From Arenimonas donghaensis DSM 18148 = HO3-R19 (GTDB lineage: Bacteria; Pseudomonadota; Gammaproteobacteria; Xanthomonadales; Xanthomonadaceae), in assembly GCF_000743535.1 (NCBI RefSeq), contig NZ_AVCJ01000051.1, positions 1 to 64,000 on the forward strand: 64,000 nucleotides of DNA, read 5' to 3'. The notes under the pieces were generated by a model that did no database searches, was not told the DNA's origin, and saw only the letters and a program-made list of their open reading frames with translations. Shown here one piece after another: positions 23,461 to 30,602 of the stretch. A program made the translations under genes and the position numbers. How positions within the stretch are numbered: position 1 is the stretch's first letter; every line of letters begins with the position of its first letter.

Positions 23461-24114
23461 TCAGGCCGGCCAGAGCCTCCCGGCGGCCAGCAGCAGCAGC
23501 GACATCACCAGCAGTGCCAGGCCGGCCACCGGCAGCAGCATCAGCGTCGGGATTCCCAGCACGGCCAGCGCCAGCGCCCAGGCCAGCGGATCGGCCAGGC
23601 TGCGCCGCGGCGTGGTGGCGCTGCCGGCGGCCAGCAGGGCGTCCAGGCTGAGCCGGCCGGCGCCGTGGAAAACCAGCGGCAGCAGCATGGCCGCGAACAG
23701 CAGCGGCAGCTTGAAGTTGCCGAAGCCCTTGTCACTGATCGCGTAGCCGCGCCAGAGCTCGGAAAGGCTGCCCCAGTCCGCCGGCCAATGCACCGACACG
23801 GTAGCCACGGCGGTCAGCACCAGCAGCGCGAAGGCGAAAAAGCGGGTGCCCAGGCCAAGCAGGAGGGCGACGGCACCGACCAGTTCGGCCCAGGTCGCCA
23901 GGGTCCAGCTCAGGTCGACCGGCACGAGGTCGAGCGGCGTCGGGAACTTGTCCTGGATGCCGGCGAACCAGTTTTCGCCGCGCAGTTTTTGCATGCCCGC
24001 TTCCCAGAACTCCCAGGCCAGCAGCAGGCGCAGGCCCAGCGGCGCCAGCCAGCGACCGGTGCCCTCCAGGCGTTCGGTCAGCGCCAGCCAGCGGGTGCTT
24101 GCATCGTGGCTCAT
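23461..24114 (-). CDS. hvfX: DoxX-family membrane protein HvfX (bufferin/oxazolin operon)
   Basis: This is a 217-aa inner-membrane protein of the DoxX family. Its features are [24 protein letters not shown] near residue 28, several hydrophobic segments ([43 protein letters not shown]) and a long hydrophobic C-terminus. DoxX members encoded last in Hvf/Buf operons are called HvfX/BufX and assist copper-peptide production in an unresolved way. Its ATG overlaps the stop of the hvfC gene (ATGA), so translation is coupled. The DoxX family is broad, so the specific role rests on context. Confidence 0.85.
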
Positions 24115-24893
24115 CAGGAAATCTCCGTATCGGGTTGGACGCCCAGCAGCACGCCATCGGCGCGTAGCTGGTCAAGCATGTGGCTGCCTTGGCGAATGAA
24201 AGCCTCGTGGTCCGGCGCTGCCGCTTCCACGGCCAGGGCCTCGAGCTGCTGCCGGCCGCTGAGCCCGGGCTGTTCCGACAGCCGCTGCAGCAGCCGGAAG
24301 GTCAGCGGGCTCAGGGCGTGGAAGTGGACCCGCAGGTCAGCGCCCCGGCGCACCAGCAGCAAGGTCGGCGTGGGCGGCGGCTCGGTCGGCAGCTTGCCCG
24401 GCGACAGGCGGTGCACCGGCCAGGTGTAGGCCAGCGGCCAGGCCAGGGGTGAAACGACCGGCTTGCCGGCGAGCAGATCGCCGTCGGCATCGTGTGGCGT
24501 CGCCTGGTCGCTGGCCTCGCTCAGGTCCAACGCCAGTTCGACCCATTCGTAGTGCGCCAGCTCGACCAGCCAGGGCGGGTCGGCCTGGCCAGGGTCGTCG
24601 CGTTCCTGCAGGTATTGGATGAACTCGCGCGGCAGTTCCGGGAACAGCGGCGTCGTGCAGCGATGGTCGCGATAGAAATCGCGCACCAGGGCATGCCAGG
24701 CCGAGTCCCCCAGCAACGTCCGGATGACCGGGAAGTTGGCGGCCAGCAGGCCCTGCAGGCTGTTGTAGAACAGGTCGCGGTAGATCTTCAGGCGGCGGTC
24801 TTCGATGCCGGGCGGCGGCGCCTCGACGTCGGGGTCGCGCACGTGCGCGGCCAGGCGCGCTTGCTGCGCGCGCAGGGTTTCAGGCGCGGGCAT
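24114..24893 (-). CDS. hvfC: DUF2063 protein HvfC/BufC, partner of the MNIO enzyme
   Basis: This 259-aa protein has the DUF2063 N-terminal domain typical of HvfC/BufC ([36 protein letters not shown], then [13 protein letters not shown]). A C-terminal domain of about 100 aa follows that can serve as a RiPP recognition element. In the studied Haemophilus and Caulobacter systems this partner binds the precursor and is needed with the DUF692 enzyme for cysteine modification. It overlaps hvfB by 14 bases and hvfX by 4, so all three are coupled. The tail is leucine-rich ([16 protein letters not shown]), as in winged-helix recognition modules. Confidence 0.9.
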
Positions 24894-25737
24894 GGCGGCC
24901 GGTTGCGGGGGCGTGGCCTGCCAGCACGTCGCGCACCTGGGCCAGTTCAGCGACCAGTTCGGCGTACGGCGGGATGTTGAAGTCGCGTTCGAGCAGGGTC
25001 GGTCGCGGCCCGAAGCGCCGGCAGGCGTCGTCGAGCAGGGCGAACACGTCGGGCTTCACCGCCGCGCCGTGGGTGTCCACCTTCAGGTCGTCGGCCTCGT
25101 CGTAGTGGCCGGCGATATGGAAATAGGCGATGCGCCCGCCGGGCAGGCCGTCGAGGAAGGCCTGCGGGTCGTAGCGGTGGTTGATGGCGTTGACGTAGAC
25201 GTTGTTGACGTCGAGCAACAGCTCGCAGTCGGCTTCGGCCAGCACCCCGATGATGAAGTCGAGTTCCGGCATCGCCTGGTAGGGCGCGGCGTAATAGGAG
25301 ATGTTTTCGACAGCGATACGCCGCCCCAGCGCGTCCTGCACCTGGCGGATGCGGCCGGCGACATGGTTCACGGCCTCTTCGGTGAAAGGGATGGGCAGCA
25401 GGTCGTAGAGCTGGCCATCGTCGCTGCAGTAGCTCAGGTGCTCACTGAATACCGGCACCCGGTGTTCGTCCAGGAAGCGCCGCAGCTTGCGCAGGTAGGT
25501 GTCGTCGAAGGGATCGGTCGAACCCAGCGACAGCGACAGGCCGTGGCAAACCAGCGGATGTCGTGCGCTGAGCTCGCGCAGGGCGGCGCCGAAACGCCCC
25601 CCCACGCCAATCCAATTGTCCGGCGCACACTCCAGGAAGTCGAAATCCCCCGCCGGCGCGGCCTGCAGCGGACCCAGCAGGGCCCGTCGCAGGCCCAGGC
25701 CTACGGCAGTCGTCGGCAATGTGCGCGTGGACGTCAT
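24880..25737 (-). CDS. hvfB: MNIO (DUF692) multinuclear iron oxidase HvfB, peptide maturase
   Basis: MNIO enzymes use a two- or three-iron centre and O2 to rewrite cysteine residues in a precursor peptide; HvfB-type members make oxazolone/thioamide groups that bind copper. The 285-aa TIM-barrel protein shows the expected metal ligands: H65 (CHGLSLSLG), H100 (SEHLSY), E144 (VENISYY), D176 and N178 ([10 protein letters not shown]), H207 and H211 (HIAGH), D221/H223 (DTHGAAV) and E250 (LLERDFNIP). I choose ATG 25737, 7 bases after the precursor stop. The same frame is open further upstream only as a shadow of the precursor's DNA repeats. Confidence 0.93.
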
Positions 25738-25744
25738 GCCTGGC

Positions 25745-26122
25745 TCAGGCGTTGCCGCCGCACTTGCCTTCCTCGCCCTTTTCGTCGCCGGCGTGGTCGG
25801 AGCCGCACTTGCCTTCACCGCACTTGCCTTCCTCGCCCTTCTCGCCTGCCTTGTCGGCGCCACACTTGCCTTCACCGCACTTGCCTTCTTCGGCCTTGTC
25901 GGAACCGCACTTGCCTTCGCCGCACTTGCCTTCTTCGGCCTTGTCGGAGCCGCACTTGCCTTCGCCACACTTGCCCTCCTCGCCCTTGTGGTCGTCCGCG
26001 GCGGCGAGCAGGTAGCCCTGGGCCAGGGTGTCCATGGCGAAGGCGGAGGTGGACAGGGCCATCGAGCCGAGCAGCGCGGCGCTGGCGGCGAGGACGACGG
26101 GTTTCAGGGTCTTCTTGGACAT
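25745..26122 (-). CDS. hvfA: HvfA-type RiPP precursor (DUF2282) with nine EGKCG motifs
   Basis: This is a 125-aa exported precursor. Residues 1-29 form a Sec signal peptide ([20 protein letters not shown], then MALSTSAFA), followed by a short DUF2282-like leader ([18 protein letters not shown]). The core holds nine EGKCG motifs with cysteines at 52, 57, 67, 72, 82, 87, 101, 106 and 121, and no other cysteine. In Haemophilus HvfA, such EGKCG cysteines become oxazolone/thioamide pairs that bind Cu(I). ATG 26122 is chosen because it opens the signal peptide and has a GAGGGA ribosome site; the longer frame has none. The gene lies between an ECF sigma gene and hvfB. Confidence 0.93.
25748..25978 (-). 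repeat. Tandem repeats encoding EGKCG units
   Basis: Within hvfA the DNA is a set of near-identical direct repeats of about 45 bp, each coding for [10 protein letters not shown] plus a spacer ([14 protein letters not shown] or [10 protein letters not shown]). There are four double-motif units and one terminal single motif. The near-identity at DNA level means copy number can change by slippage or recombination, altering the number of copper-binding sites. These are coding repeats, not CRISPR. Confidence 0.9.
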
Positions 26123-26174
26123 GGTGTGGCTCCCTCGTTGGGTTGCTTGCAGTGGTGCGGGCGGGCCCGCGGGT

Positions 26175-26744
26175 TTAATCCTGAAGGTATTCGCGCGCCA
26201 GTGCACGCGCGCGGTGCAGGCGCGCCTTGCTGGCTTCGCGGGTGAGGCCCAGCGCGTCGGCCAGTTCGCCGATGGTCAGTCCCTGCACATCGCGCAGCAG
26301 GATGATCTCGCGATAGTGGGCGGGTAGTGATTCCAGCGCGGCGGCCAGGTCGCTCGCCAGTCCGGCGGGCGCCTGGGCGCAGGGGCCCGCGATGTCTTCG
26401 GTAAGCGGCTCCTGGCGCAGTTGCCGCCAGCCGCGCTTCATGCGGTTGCACTCGCGCTTGACGATGCGGAAGAGCCAGGAGGTGAAGGACTCGAGCTGGC
26501 GCAGGTCGGCCAGCTTTCGCGACGCGGTGAACAGCGACTCCTGCACGGCGTCCTCGACGTCGTTCACCACGCAATGGTGTTCGGCGTAGCGGCGCAGGTC
26601 CTGGCGCGAGCGGGTAAGCACGCGTTCCAGGGCCAGGCAGTCACCGGCGCGCGCCGCCAGCAGGTCGTCCTGCCAGGGATGGGCAACGGGGACGGGCGTG
26701 CCGGGCATCGCGGCCTTCATGGATGGGTTCACCGTTATGGTCAT
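26175..26744 (-). CDS. ECF-type sigma factor heading the hvf operon
   Basis: This 189-aa sigma-70-family protein has only regions 2 and 4. Region 2 shows DVEDAVQESLFTASRKL and SFTSWLFRIVKRECNRMKR; region 4 shows LPAHYREIILLRDVQGLTIGELA then LTREASKARLHRARALAREYL. It is 52 bp upstream of hvfA on the same strand and is presumably cotranscribed or autoregulated. No anti-sigma gene (such as a DUF1109/NrsF-type membrane protein) is adjacent, so how activity is controlled is unknown. I start at ATG 26744, with a GGAGG run close upstream; ATG 26720 is an alternative. Confidence 0.88.
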   Translation of the reverse strand: MTITVNPSMKAAMPGTPVPVAHPWQDDLLAARAGDCLALERVLTRSRQDLRRYAEHHCVVNDVEDAVQESLFTASRKLADLRQLESFTSWLFRIVKRECNRMKRGWRQLRQEPLTEDIAGPCAQAPAGLASDLAAALESLPAHYREIILLRDVQGLTIGELADALGLTREASKARLHRARALAREYLQD

Positions 26745-26808
26745 ACCCTCCAAGTGGCGAGGCCCGGGTGAAAGGGTGCGCGGCCCGCCGAAGGCATTCA
26801 GGTGGCGT

Positions 26809-28025
26809 TTAGGTTCCCGTGGGTGCCGGCCCAGGTGCGACGTGCCGCGGAAGCCCCAGTGAAACCAGCGCCGCCATCAGGATGAACACCGACGACACCG
26901 CCAGGCAGGCGGCCAGTCCCCAGGCCTGGTAGACCGCGCCCGAGAGCACGGTGCCAAGCAGGCGGCCGCCGGCATTGGCCATGTAATAAAAGCCCACGTC
27001 CAGCGATACGCCGTCTTCGCGGGCGTAGCTGACGATCAGGTAGCTGTGCAGGGCCGAATTGAGCGCGAACAGCACCCCAAAGACCAGCAGCCCGGTCACC
27101 ACGACCGTTTGGGCCGGCCAGCCGGCCCAGAGCGCCGCCGCCATGGCCGCTGCCACGCCGGCCAGGGGCAAGGCCCAGGCAAAGCCGGCCCGGCCGTCGG
27201 GGACGGGCCCGCTGCGCAGTCCGGTGATGGCCGGCGCCAGCGCCTGCACGGCGCCGTAGCCGATGATCCACAGCGCGAGGAATGCGCCGATCTCGGCATG
27301 CGGCCAGCCCAGCCGCTCGGCCAGGAAAACCGGCAGCGCCACCACGAACCAGACGTCGCGGGCACCGAACAGGAACAACCGCGCCGCCGACAGCCGGTTG
27401 ATGGCCGGGCTCTTGGACAGCAGTTCCCGGAACTTCGGCCGGGCGCTGGCGCGACCCAGGTCGGCCTGCAGGAACACCAGGCTGCCAATCCACACCAGCG
27501 CCAGCATTGCCGCCATGGCCAGGACGGCGCCGCCGAATCCCAGCCAGGCCAGCAGCAGCGCACCCAGGAAGAAGCCCACGCCCTTGAGCGCGTTCTTCGA
27601 GCCGGTGAGCAGCGCCACCCAGCGATACAGGCGTGCCTGCTGGTCACCCGGCACCAGCAGCTTGATGCTGCCCTTGGCGCTCATCTTGTTCAGGTCCTTG
27701 GCGATGCCGCTCAGCGCCTGCGCCGCCATGACCCAGGGCACGGCGAGCAGGGCCGCGGGCACGGCCAGCATCGCGAGCGCGCCGACCTGCAACACCAGCC
27801 CCAGGTTCATCGTCCGGTTCAGGCCCAGGCGGGCGCCCAGCCAGCCGCCGACGAGGTTGGTGACCACGCCGAAAAATTCGTAGAACACAAACAGCATCGC
27901 CACCTGCAGCGGTGAATAGCCCAGCTGGTGGAAGTGCAGCACCACCAGCATGCGCAGTGCGCCGTCGGTCAGGGTGAAGGCCCAGTAGTTGGCCGTCACC
28001 AGCAGGTACTGGCGGGTCAGCGGAT

Positions 28026-28029
<4 letters not shown>
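26809..28029 (-). CDS. arsJ: Organoarsenical efflux MFS transporter ArsJ
   Basis: ArsJ exports 1-arseno-3-phosphoglycerate, which then falls apart to arsenate outside the cell. The 406-aa protein has about 12 membrane segments and the family-typical start [20 protein letters not shown] followed by [20 protein letters not shown] and [18 protein letters not shown] 28029 overlaps the stop of the GAPDH gene (ATGA), which supports coupled translation. The GAPDH-ArsJ pairing is the established arsenate resistance pathway, so the function is well supported by context. The stop lies 65 bp from the ECF sigma gene. Confidence 0.93.
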
Positions 28030-29026
<997 letters not shown>

Positions 29027-29030
<4 letters not shown>

Positions 29031-29347
29031 GCGGATTTTTTCCTTGGGGCGCAGCGGGAGGCATCGCCACCGCAGCAGTTTTCGGTGAGGTAGGCGACCA
29101 GGCCCTGCACGGCGTCGAGGTCGGCGCGATAGCGGATGTGGCGGCCACTGGGCTCGGCTTCGACCAGCCCGGCCTGCAGCAGTGCCTTGAGGTGGAAGGA
29201 CAGGGTGGTGGTCGGCAGGTCCAGGTGTTCGGCGATTTCACCGGCGAAGGCGCCGTCCGGCGCGCGTTCCACCAGCCAGCGATGCACGGCCAGCCGGTGC
29301 GGCTGGGCAAGCGCGGAGAGGGCGGCCAGGGCCTGTTTCGTTTTCAT
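29027..29347 (-). CDS. arsR: ArsR-family arsenic-responsive repressor
   Basis: This is a 106-aa winged-helix repressor. The DNA-recognition helix region is [20 protein letters not shown]. The effector site is not the helix-3 CVC motif of plasmid ArsR but three C-terminal cysteines, C91, C92 and C99 ([11 protein letters not shown]), much like the Acidithiobacillus-type ArsR. It is the first gene of arsR-gapdh-arsJ, with ATGA coupling to gapdh. Its promoter carries a palindromic operator between the -35 and -10, consistent with autorepression relieved by arsenite. Confidence 0.93.
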
Positions 29348-29353
29348 TGTTCT

Positions 29354-29381
29354 AGAATAGTCGAACTATGTGACACTTCAA
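29354..29381 (-). promoter_or_regulatory. ars operon promoter with ArsR operator
   Basis: On the minus strand, TTGAAG (29376-29381) and TATTCT (29354-29359) are separated by 16 bases, ending 6 bases before the arsR ATG at 29347. The inverted repeat ATAGT-N3-ACTAT (29357-29369) overlaps the -10 and spacer, where a repressor would block RNA polymerase. The very short distance to the start means the transcript is leaderless or nearly so, unless another promoter exists. Confidence 0.65.
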
Positions 29382-29414
29382 AGTCAGGCTGCGACGCCGG
29401 CTAGAATCGCGGCG

Positions 29415-30574
29415 ATGCGCGCCCAACTCTTCCTGGTCTTCCTGCGGCTGGGCCTGACCTCCTTCGGTGGACCGATCGCCCACCTGGGCTATTTCCGCGA
29501 GGAGTTCGTGGCCCGGCGGCGCTGGCTGTCGGAGGCCGAATTCGCCCAGCTGCTGGCGATCTGCCAGGCACTGCCCGGGCCCGCCAGCAGCCAGCTTGGT
29601 TTCGCCGTGGGCCTGCTGCGTGCAGGCTGGGCCGGCGGGCTGTTGGCTTTCCTGGGTTTTACCCTGCCCTCGGCCCTGCTGCTTTTCGGCTTCGCGATTG
29701 TCGCGCCGAGCGTCGATGCCGGGCTGATGGCGCCCCTGGTGCACGGCCTGAAGCTGGTCGCCGTGGTGGTCGTGGCGCATGGCCTGGTCGGGATGGCGCG
29801 CAGCCTGGTGCCGGACGGGCCGCGGGCGCTGCTGGCGGTGCTGGCGCTGGGCGTGATGCTGGCCGGTGGGCCGGCCTGGCACCAGCTGGCGGTGATCGCC
29901 GCCGGCGGGGTCCTGGGCATATGGCTTTGCCGCGGCGTCGCGAACCTGCCCGCGGGCACGCTACGAACGCGCCACTCGGCGCGCACCGGCGGCTGGCTGC
30001 TGGGCCTGTTCGCGGTCGGGCTGGCGACGGCCCTGTCGGTCGCCGATGAGAGCGCGTCGGCGCTGGCGCTGACGGCAGCGTTCTACGAAGCCGGCGCCCT
30101 GGTTTTCGGCGGTGGCCACGTGGTGTTGCCCTTGCTTGAGCAGTCCACGGTCGCCACCGGCTGGCTGGGCGAAGACGCGTTCCTGGCCGGCTACGGTGCC
30201 GCGCAGGCCGTGCCGGGGCCGATGTTTGCCTTGGCGGCGTACCTCGGTGCCCTGGTGCCGACCGGGATGACGCCGGGAGTCGGCGCCACCCTGGCCCTGA
30301 TGGCGATCTTCCTGCCGGGCCTGATCCTGGTGGCGGCGCTGCTGCCACTGTGGTCCGGGTTGGCGGCGCGACCCGGGGCCGCGGCGGTGGTCGCCGGCGT
30401 CAATGCAGTCGTCGTTGGCCTGTTGGCGGCGGCGTTCGTGGGCACCGTGCTGCCTGCCGGCGTACAGGGCGCCGGCGATGCCGTGATCGCGATCGCCGGT
30501 CTGGCGCTGCTGGCGGTGGCCAGGTGGAACGTGCTCTGGGTGGTGGCCATCGTCGTGGCCACCATCCTGTTGCT

Positions 30575-30602
<28 letters not shown>
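29415..30602 (+). CDS. chrA: Chromate efflux transporter ChrA
   Basis: This 395-aa inner-membrane protein of the CHR family has two homologous halves, each with a signature: [19 protein letters not shown] near the N-terminus and [21 protein letters not shown] in the second half. Both halves also hold a proline-glycine motif, [12 protein letters not shown] and [15 protein letters not shown]. The long form of ChrA exports chromate. ATG 29415 is chosen over GTG 29370, which would start inside the ars promoter. It is divergent from arsR and converges on gcvP, overlapping it by 28 bases at the 3' ends. Confidence 0.9.

Follow-up and report, generated by a model that had tools for sequence, protein, structure and literature searches.

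Which peptide is specified by a compact five-gene locus of Arenimonas donghaensis DSM 18148 = HO3-R19, and which other genes would be switched on together with it? The locus lies in a stretch of 64,000 nucleotides (positions 1 to 64,000 of the forward strand of contig NZ_AVCJ01000051.1), termed here the window, where it occupies positions 23461-26744 of the minus strand and encodes, in this order, an extracytoplasmic function (ECF) sigma factor, a cysteine-rich precursor, a multinuclear non-heme iron-dependent oxidative enzyme (MNIO), a DUF2063 partner and a DoxX-family protein. It is very probably a captophorin (oxazolin/HvfA-type) operon of Arenimonas and as such belongs to a class that already has a name and has been characterised in part. 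What is added here is a moderately strong regulatory prediction from computation, according to which the regulon of the ECF sigma factor rather likely consists of the operon plus msrP, a methionine sulfoxide reductase gene.

The set of five genes in one direction, which had been proposed in an earlier interpretation of the letters (the sequence-only reading), is borne out by the open reading frames and by family models, and the operon is complete. The tight spacing of the last four genes is likewise confirmed by the gene coordinates, with 7 bases between precursor and MNIO, a 14-base overlap of MNIO and HvfC, and 1 base common to HvfC and DoxX. Family calls were made with Pfam and curated NCBIfam models and judged against their cut-offs. 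Four of the five proteins already bear NCBIfam names, namely the HvfA-type precursor with its EGKCG domain (NF050137, 77.4 bits, cut-off 19.5), HvfB (NF003818, 414.5 bits, cut-off 360), HvfC (NF050145, 307.6 bits, cut-off 142, with additional matches to Pfam PF09836 and PF22106) and HvfX (NF050144, 140.4 bits, cut-off 80); the sigma factor shows Sigma70_r2 and Sigma70_r4 above the Pfam cut-offs, and its start is uncertain among three in-frame ATGs (26744, 26720, 26708). All nine precursor cysteines are contained in the nine EGKCG motifs counted earlier, and the protein begins with a signal-peptide-like stretch, recognised in the sequence without a predictor, for which "exported" is a better term than the former "secreted". 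The full-length HvfA model NF050188 reached 71.9 bits on the precursor, below its cut-off of 95, which makes it HvfA-like and not an HvfA equivalog; such a score is no requirement in the definition of the captophorin group as reported (PMC13097082). The genome itself holds a single MNIO match and two EGKCG-domain matches, both of which lie within this precursor.

The MNIO could be aligned to PDB 3BWW across the RR, DVNN, VDTHG and ERDFN stretches, and each of the 17 residues checked was kept in 19-21 of 21 MNIOs (the window enzyme and 20 from genus and order loci). Arg15, Arg16, Asp249 and Phe250 of FonB have been reported as substrate or catalytic residues (PMC13097082), and N175, D242 and H244 of HvfB as putative third-iron residues (PMC13419390). 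These residues were placed on the window MNIO by motif and not by numbered alignment, and the motifs of the metal site and of the Lys-Cys substrate residues are kept, in agreement with the metal ligands expected previously. In two loci, L014 and L025 (genomes G003 and G036), the MNIO match carries one in-frame TGA, attributable to decay or sequencing error.

Family models and MNIO residues thus lend good support to a predicted operon of the Hvf type for a multi-site Cu(I)-binding, ribosomally synthesized and post-translationally modified peptide (RiPP). The exported, multi-site copper peptide of the sequence-only reading is upheld as to the type of operon, with copper binding and export as predicted properties, and its label "oxazolin/bufferin-type" survives in the oxazolin/fontiphorin part. 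The bufferin (Buf1/Buf2) part was rejected: the BufB model on the MNIO attains 268.9 bits, below its cut-off of 310, and the precursor matches no Pfam family and therefore has no DUF2282. 5-Thiooxazoles were recently reported in fontiphorin, gonophorin and oxazolin, the last with a revised structure, and the group was named captophorins, with copper binding reported for fontiphorin and gonophorin (PMC13097082, 2026); the heterocycle of the group is now assigned as 5-thiooxazole, which is predicted here by analogy.

Such operons are common: among 150 genomes sampled from the order, 109 encode an HvfB above its cut-off, and about 2,000 EGKCG precursors have been described (PMC12452194). The former judgement that the family is described and this operon probably is not was fair, but the commonness of such operons makes this one a further member. 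The sigma factor is rarer than HvfB, being found in 7 of the 150 order genomes, in 17 of 60 family genomes (by a broader model) and in 18 of 27 Arenimonas genomes, and it heads the same genes in many Lysobacteraceae. Gene order was compared among 80 sigma relatives, the best of 117, some of which come from the same genomes as the genus set, so that not all rows are independent. Among these, 54 loci encode a sigma factor of at least 57% identity; MNIO and HvfC lie beside it in 46, of which 24 also show a DoxX match, and the fetched stretch includes RNase T in 49 and ArsJ in 11. A chance assembly is rejected, since relatives repeat this gene order. The remaining eight loci comprise L084, which stops at a contig end, L103, L107 and L108, which are situated elsewhere, and L070, L072, L074 and L077, which are weighed below.

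Precursors of the relatives contain 4-13 cysteines, the upper value being inflated by an upstream start chosen in L089. EF-hand-like calcium loops are interspersed between the EGKCG blocks in many Lysobacteraceae precursors (L044 and L045, with a Pfam EF-hand in L044, and 20 of 46 precursors of the sigma relatives), whereas the EF hands of published EF-hand precursors are C-terminal. The precursor of the sigma-less genome G012 (L046, 6221-6667) combines EGRCG and EGGCG motifs with a single EGKCG, carries a long tail rich in His and Asp, and perhaps serves another metal.

As for control, a block of the form GCG[AC]A[CT]CC-N17-C[TA]CTT is conserved upstream of the sigma gene in Arenimonas and many other Lysobacteraceae. 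It was found in 35 of the 54 upstream stretches, and its spacer is 17 in 35 of 35, with 16-18 permitted. A sigma-70-like RTGACA-N17-CATGCT element was also seen by eye in the Arenimonas upstream alignment. The block was searched both as the strict pattern in 8 Arenimonas genomes and as CGMAYCC-N17-CTCT in 13 genomes, each against a reversed control. Because the motif counts alone are weak, reliance is put on the placement of the blocks, for which 11 of the 14 strict-pattern places were inspected (L149, L151 and L153 were left out).

The strict search landed independently before msrP in two genomes (G000 and G013); the product concerned (P0006) is classed as MsrP by NCBIfam (456 bits against a cut-off of 207) and is followed by a membrane protein that we take to be MsrQ-like. 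msrP is present in 21 of the 27 Arenimonas genomes, 13 of which carry the sigma factor. When upstream regions were scored with a matrix trained on sigma-gene promoters only, all 13 genomes with both genes gave a match 47-57 bases before msrP, with scores of 3.3-20.5, the lowest of which (G018) reaches p 0.05 against shuffles at best. Seven of the eight msrP genomes without a detected sigma factor score -0.6 or below, among them G007 and G015, which are less than 90% complete; the eighth, G011, scores as high as the sigma-bearing genomes, and it is 77% complete with a contig ending beside its MNIO gene. The association between sigma and the msrP block has a Fisher p of 1.3e-5 without G011 and 6.9e-5 with it, values that are overstated because the genomes share ancestry. 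The msrP upstream region of G021 differs altogether. Outside Arenimonas, the comparison drew on the msrP loci of 30 of the 40 family genomes that have the gene. Sigma-bearing loci (nine) there reach higher scores than sigma-less loci (19; p 0.0007 on treating loci as independent, which they are not), and six of the nine exceed all 19 in a different sequence context.

Further candidate targets emerged from the shorter form, for which 65 of 70 places were inspected, the other five belonging by their coordinates to promoters of the sigma gene (three) and of msrP (two). According to a crude codon model, 36 of the 65 are possibly non-coding, several of which appear coding by eye; the stretches judged coding by eye comprise RILGAAEEL in seven loci, RIQDLFFGL-like ones in four and RIPGAGQGL-like ones in two. 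Apparently non-coding places before a likely gene start include five at the sigma gene and nine at msrP. The block also precedes an exported-looking AhpC/TSA-family (peroxiredoxin-family) gene in G000 and G023, at 34 and 37 bases, respectively, the two proteins being 79% identical, and an exported-looking MsrB (SelR domain) in G008, at 95 bases. No convincing downstream gene was seen at others of the places that the codon model called non-coding, and none of the 12 places in the two sigma-less genomes stands before a sigma, msrP, AhpC/TSA-family or msrB gene. ThrS-like and malate-dehydrogenase-like genes (G010, by eye), with one place each in one genome, were rejected as probable chance.

The sigma factor itself displays 23 invariant columns, including C50 and C91, in 36 homologues (37-82% identity). 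Both cysteines occur in 74 of 86 rows of a wider set, and C50 is absent from 12 rows, which represent other sigma factors (30-38% identity); C50 sits in one of the two retrieval patterns, by which its conservation is partly favoured, and C91 sits in neither. An AlphaFold2 model has a mean predicted local distance difference test (pLDDT) of 51-78 per ten residues over 21-110, too low for a C50-C91 distance. No anti-sigma gene adjoins the sigma gene, which is flanked by arsJ upstream and the precursor downstream, and the zf-HC2 anti-sigma family gave 0 matches in the genome, NrsF and other membrane anti-sigmas not having been searched for. Zinc-type anti-sigma (ZAS) proteins presumably fall within the zf-HC2 family. 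Remote homologues of the sigma factor are followed by a CMD-family (AhpD-like) gene in 11 loci (L111, L113, L115, L118, L121, L122, L123, L125, L134 and L056/L103, the last two names denoting one place; PF02627 was confirmed for L122), which include Ralstonia, Klebsiella, Gilliamella, Rhodospirillales and one member of the Lysobacterales. Ancestrally, the sigma family may have been paired with this gene, and ECF41 sigmas and CMD genes are reportedly treated together in a published study. Literature titles and the openings of abstracts contained no account of this Lysobacteraceae sigma factor with captophorin genes, which is weak evidence of absence.

From these comparisons we infer the chemistry, copper binding and export of the peptide, its transcription units and the reading of the block by the sigma factor as follows. 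In the probable scheme, HvfC offers the precursor to HvfB, the MNIO, which would turn as many as nine cysteines of Lys-Cys-Gly units into 5-thiooxazoles with the loss of 4 H each; the signal peptide would export the product, which would bind Cu(I) in the envelope and lower free copper there, and DoxX/HvfX would act as a membrane helper. The ECF sigma factor probably drives its own operon from the CGMAYCC-N17-CTCTT-like promoter; that it also drives msrPQ and the exported peroxiredoxin-family gene is less certain. Because the block is shared by the operon, msrP, the peroxiredoxin-family gene and msrB, the peptide may belong to a response to envelope oxidation and copper stress, in analogy with Caulobacter and Neisseria. 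A far-reaching extension of this proposal, which we regard as speculative and improbable in its full form, is an envelope programme in which an anti-sigma-free ECF sigma factor senses copper or thiol oxidation directly through C50 and C91 (in the sigma-2 region) and commands captophorin, MsrPQ, the exported peroxiredoxin-family protein and, in some species, exported MsrB, with the peptide as the metal-trapping arm of envelope methionine repair.

The function of the peptide could be read in other ways. It might mainly be a sink for oxidants, hypochlorite or reactive sulfur species with copper binding as a secondary property, as would be in keeping with predicted co-regulated genes (msrP, msrB and the peroxiredoxin family) that handle oxidation and not copper. 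That argument is blunted in that oxidised methionine can be a consequence of copper stress. Also in favour of the sink, Neisseria sigma-E is reported to control msrAB (PMC2893595), and the homologous Microbulbifer genes were not copper-induced, the authors being hesitant about a copper role (PMC12538549), which also speaks against our proposal of a copper-binding peptide. Against the sink stand the published binding of Cu(I) by EGKCG peptides with 5-thiooxazoles (PMC13097082) and the induction of the gig operon of Cupriavidus metallidurans by copper (PMC10304878), so that this function is considered rather unlikely. A copper-acquisition chalkophore like methanobactin would be made by an enzyme of the same superfamily as MbnB, and relatives of the peptide are reported to bind Cu(I). 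Nevertheless, the MbnB model TIGR04159 scores 50.8 bits on the MNIO against a cut-off of 325, by which methanobactin was rejected; the interval from arsJ to RNase T in the window holds these five genes only, with no receptor or exporter gene seen, and nine cysteines in one exported precursor fit buffering better, which leaves the chalkophore very improbable.

The regulatory part of the proposal meets more opposition. The sigma factor might read other promoters, with the msrP block reflecting the start of the divergent gene and shared ancestry and with msrP not co-regulated, which is a serious if somewhat doubtful option. The following points weigh against a sigma-driven regulon of operon and msrP. 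The motif counts stay near the control: the strict pattern has 14 places against 8 in the reversed control, and CGMAYCC-N17-CTCT has 70 against 47, barely above it, split into 58 (control 38) in 11 sigma-bearing and 12 (control 9) in two sigma-less genomes. The -35 element of Arenimonas msrP overlaps the start codon of the divergent gene, by which its conservation is confounded, and it is retained in sigma-less G012, where the -10 element is gone; msrP is missing from 5 of the 18 Arenimonas genomes that carry the sigma factor, and three of the nine sigma-bearing family loci fall within the sigma-less score range with no msrP match. Sigma and operon are also separable: in L070, L072, L074 and L077 the sigma gene stands directly before RNase T without captophorin genes, which suggests that it has other targets, and G021 and G012 keep the biosynthetic genes at a locus that lacks both sigma and DoxX, neither genome giving a sigma match at E 1e-25. 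Moreover, deletion of rpoQ in C. metallidurans is reported to raise, not lower, gig expression (PMC10304878). On the other side, the msrP -10 element persists at its exact distance in all 13 genomes and is lost in sigma-less G012; the family loci that surpass every sigma-less one do so outside the Arenimonas context, and the sites before the peroxiredoxin-family gene and msrB lie away from msrP. Joint control of operon and msrP is retained as the rather likely reading.

The prediction matters in that captophorins are widespread and their role is debated, a copper role in Microbulbifer having failed to be confirmed (PMC12538549). The predicted sharing of a promoter with methionine sulfoxide reductases, in environmental bacteria that can partly be cultured, would permit a direct test of copper defence, oxidant defence or both. 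A sigma factor without a neighbouring anti-sigma and with an invariant cysteine pair furthermore poses a testable question of sensing.

The features of the locus and its surroundings are collected in Table 1. The neighbourhood of arsJ and captophorin genes recurs in many Arenimonas loci; in G021, without sigma, the precursor begins about 110 bases past arsJ.

Table 1. Features of the captophorin locus and neighbouring genes in the window.
Feature	Position	Strand	Basis or remark
ECF sigma factor gene	26175..26720	-	Sigma70_r2/r4 above Pfam cut-offs; C50 and C91 invariant in 36/36 homologues
Captophorin (HvfA-type) precursor, 125 aa, signal-peptide-like start, LAQGY motif	25745..26122	-	NF050137
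Precursor core with nine EGKCG motifs	25757..25978	-	Translation, domain matches, count
MNIO (HvfB)	24880..25737	-	NF003818; 3BWW alignment; conserved residues
DUF2063 partner (HvfC)	24114..24893	-	NF050145; PF09836 and PF22106
DoxX-family protein (HvfX)	23461..24114	-	NF050144
Predicted ECF-type promoter GCGCACCC-N17-CACTT of sigma gene and operon	26752..26781	-	Conserved block, strict pattern match
Conserved half-site pair CTAAACG and CTGAATG, 11 bases apart, overlapping arsJ end; possible activator site	26795..26812	-	Alignments, by eye
Arsenic operon directly upstream (ArsR-type regulator, ArsJ-associated GAPDH, ArsJ)	26809-28083, 28026-29030, 29027-29347	-	
Chromate transporter, divergent from arsenic operon	29370-30602	+	

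Compared with known systems, the operon is closest to the genes of fontiphorin (Fontimonas) and of oxazolin (HvfABCX of Haemophilus), with which it shares an EGKCG precursor, an HvfB-type MNIO and a DUF2063 partner (PMC13097082, PMC13419390), and the DoxX protein is common to it and to Haemophilus hvf. The number of EGKCG motifs differs, with nine in the window, seven in fontiphorin and six in oxazolin, and an ECF sigma factor heads the window operon, whereas the fon cluster is described in that account as MNIO, PME1 and precursor only. For the EGKCG group, the published survey lists the core genes plus a few molybdenum-oxidoreductase and ferric-reductase genes, and it places sigma and NrsF genes in Buf1 but not Buf2 clusters (PMC12452194). 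In Neisseria, the sigma-E operon NMB2140-NMB2145 (NGO1948-NGO1943) is reported to be autoregulated and to hold DoxX, DUF2063 (NGO1945), further genes and the ECF sigma factor (PMC2893595), and gonococcal genes yield the captophorin gonophorin (PMC13097082). There, the sigma gene is followed by the zinc-type anti-sigma MseR, and the numbering puts DoxX first and sigma near the end, in contrast with the window, where sigma comes first and no anti-sigma adjoins it. An ECF sigma factor is likewise tied to an MNIO operon in Caulobacter (sigF-nrsF), the SigF regulon of which is described as including bufferin-type operons and YedY, the MsrP type (PMC3511200), and in C. metallidurans (rpoQ-rsqA/gigPABT), where rpoQ is divergent to gig (PMC10304878). 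Both of these possess a membrane anti-sigma, whereas no anti-sigma gene adjoins the window sigma gene; the Caulobacter precursors are DUF2282 proteins, unlike the window precursor, and the Caulobacter promoter GTAACC-N16-CGAA differs from the CGMAYCC-N17-CTCT type. By analogy, the predicted regulon, under a sigma factor without a neighbouring anti-sigma, would repeat the logic known from Caulobacter and Neisseria.

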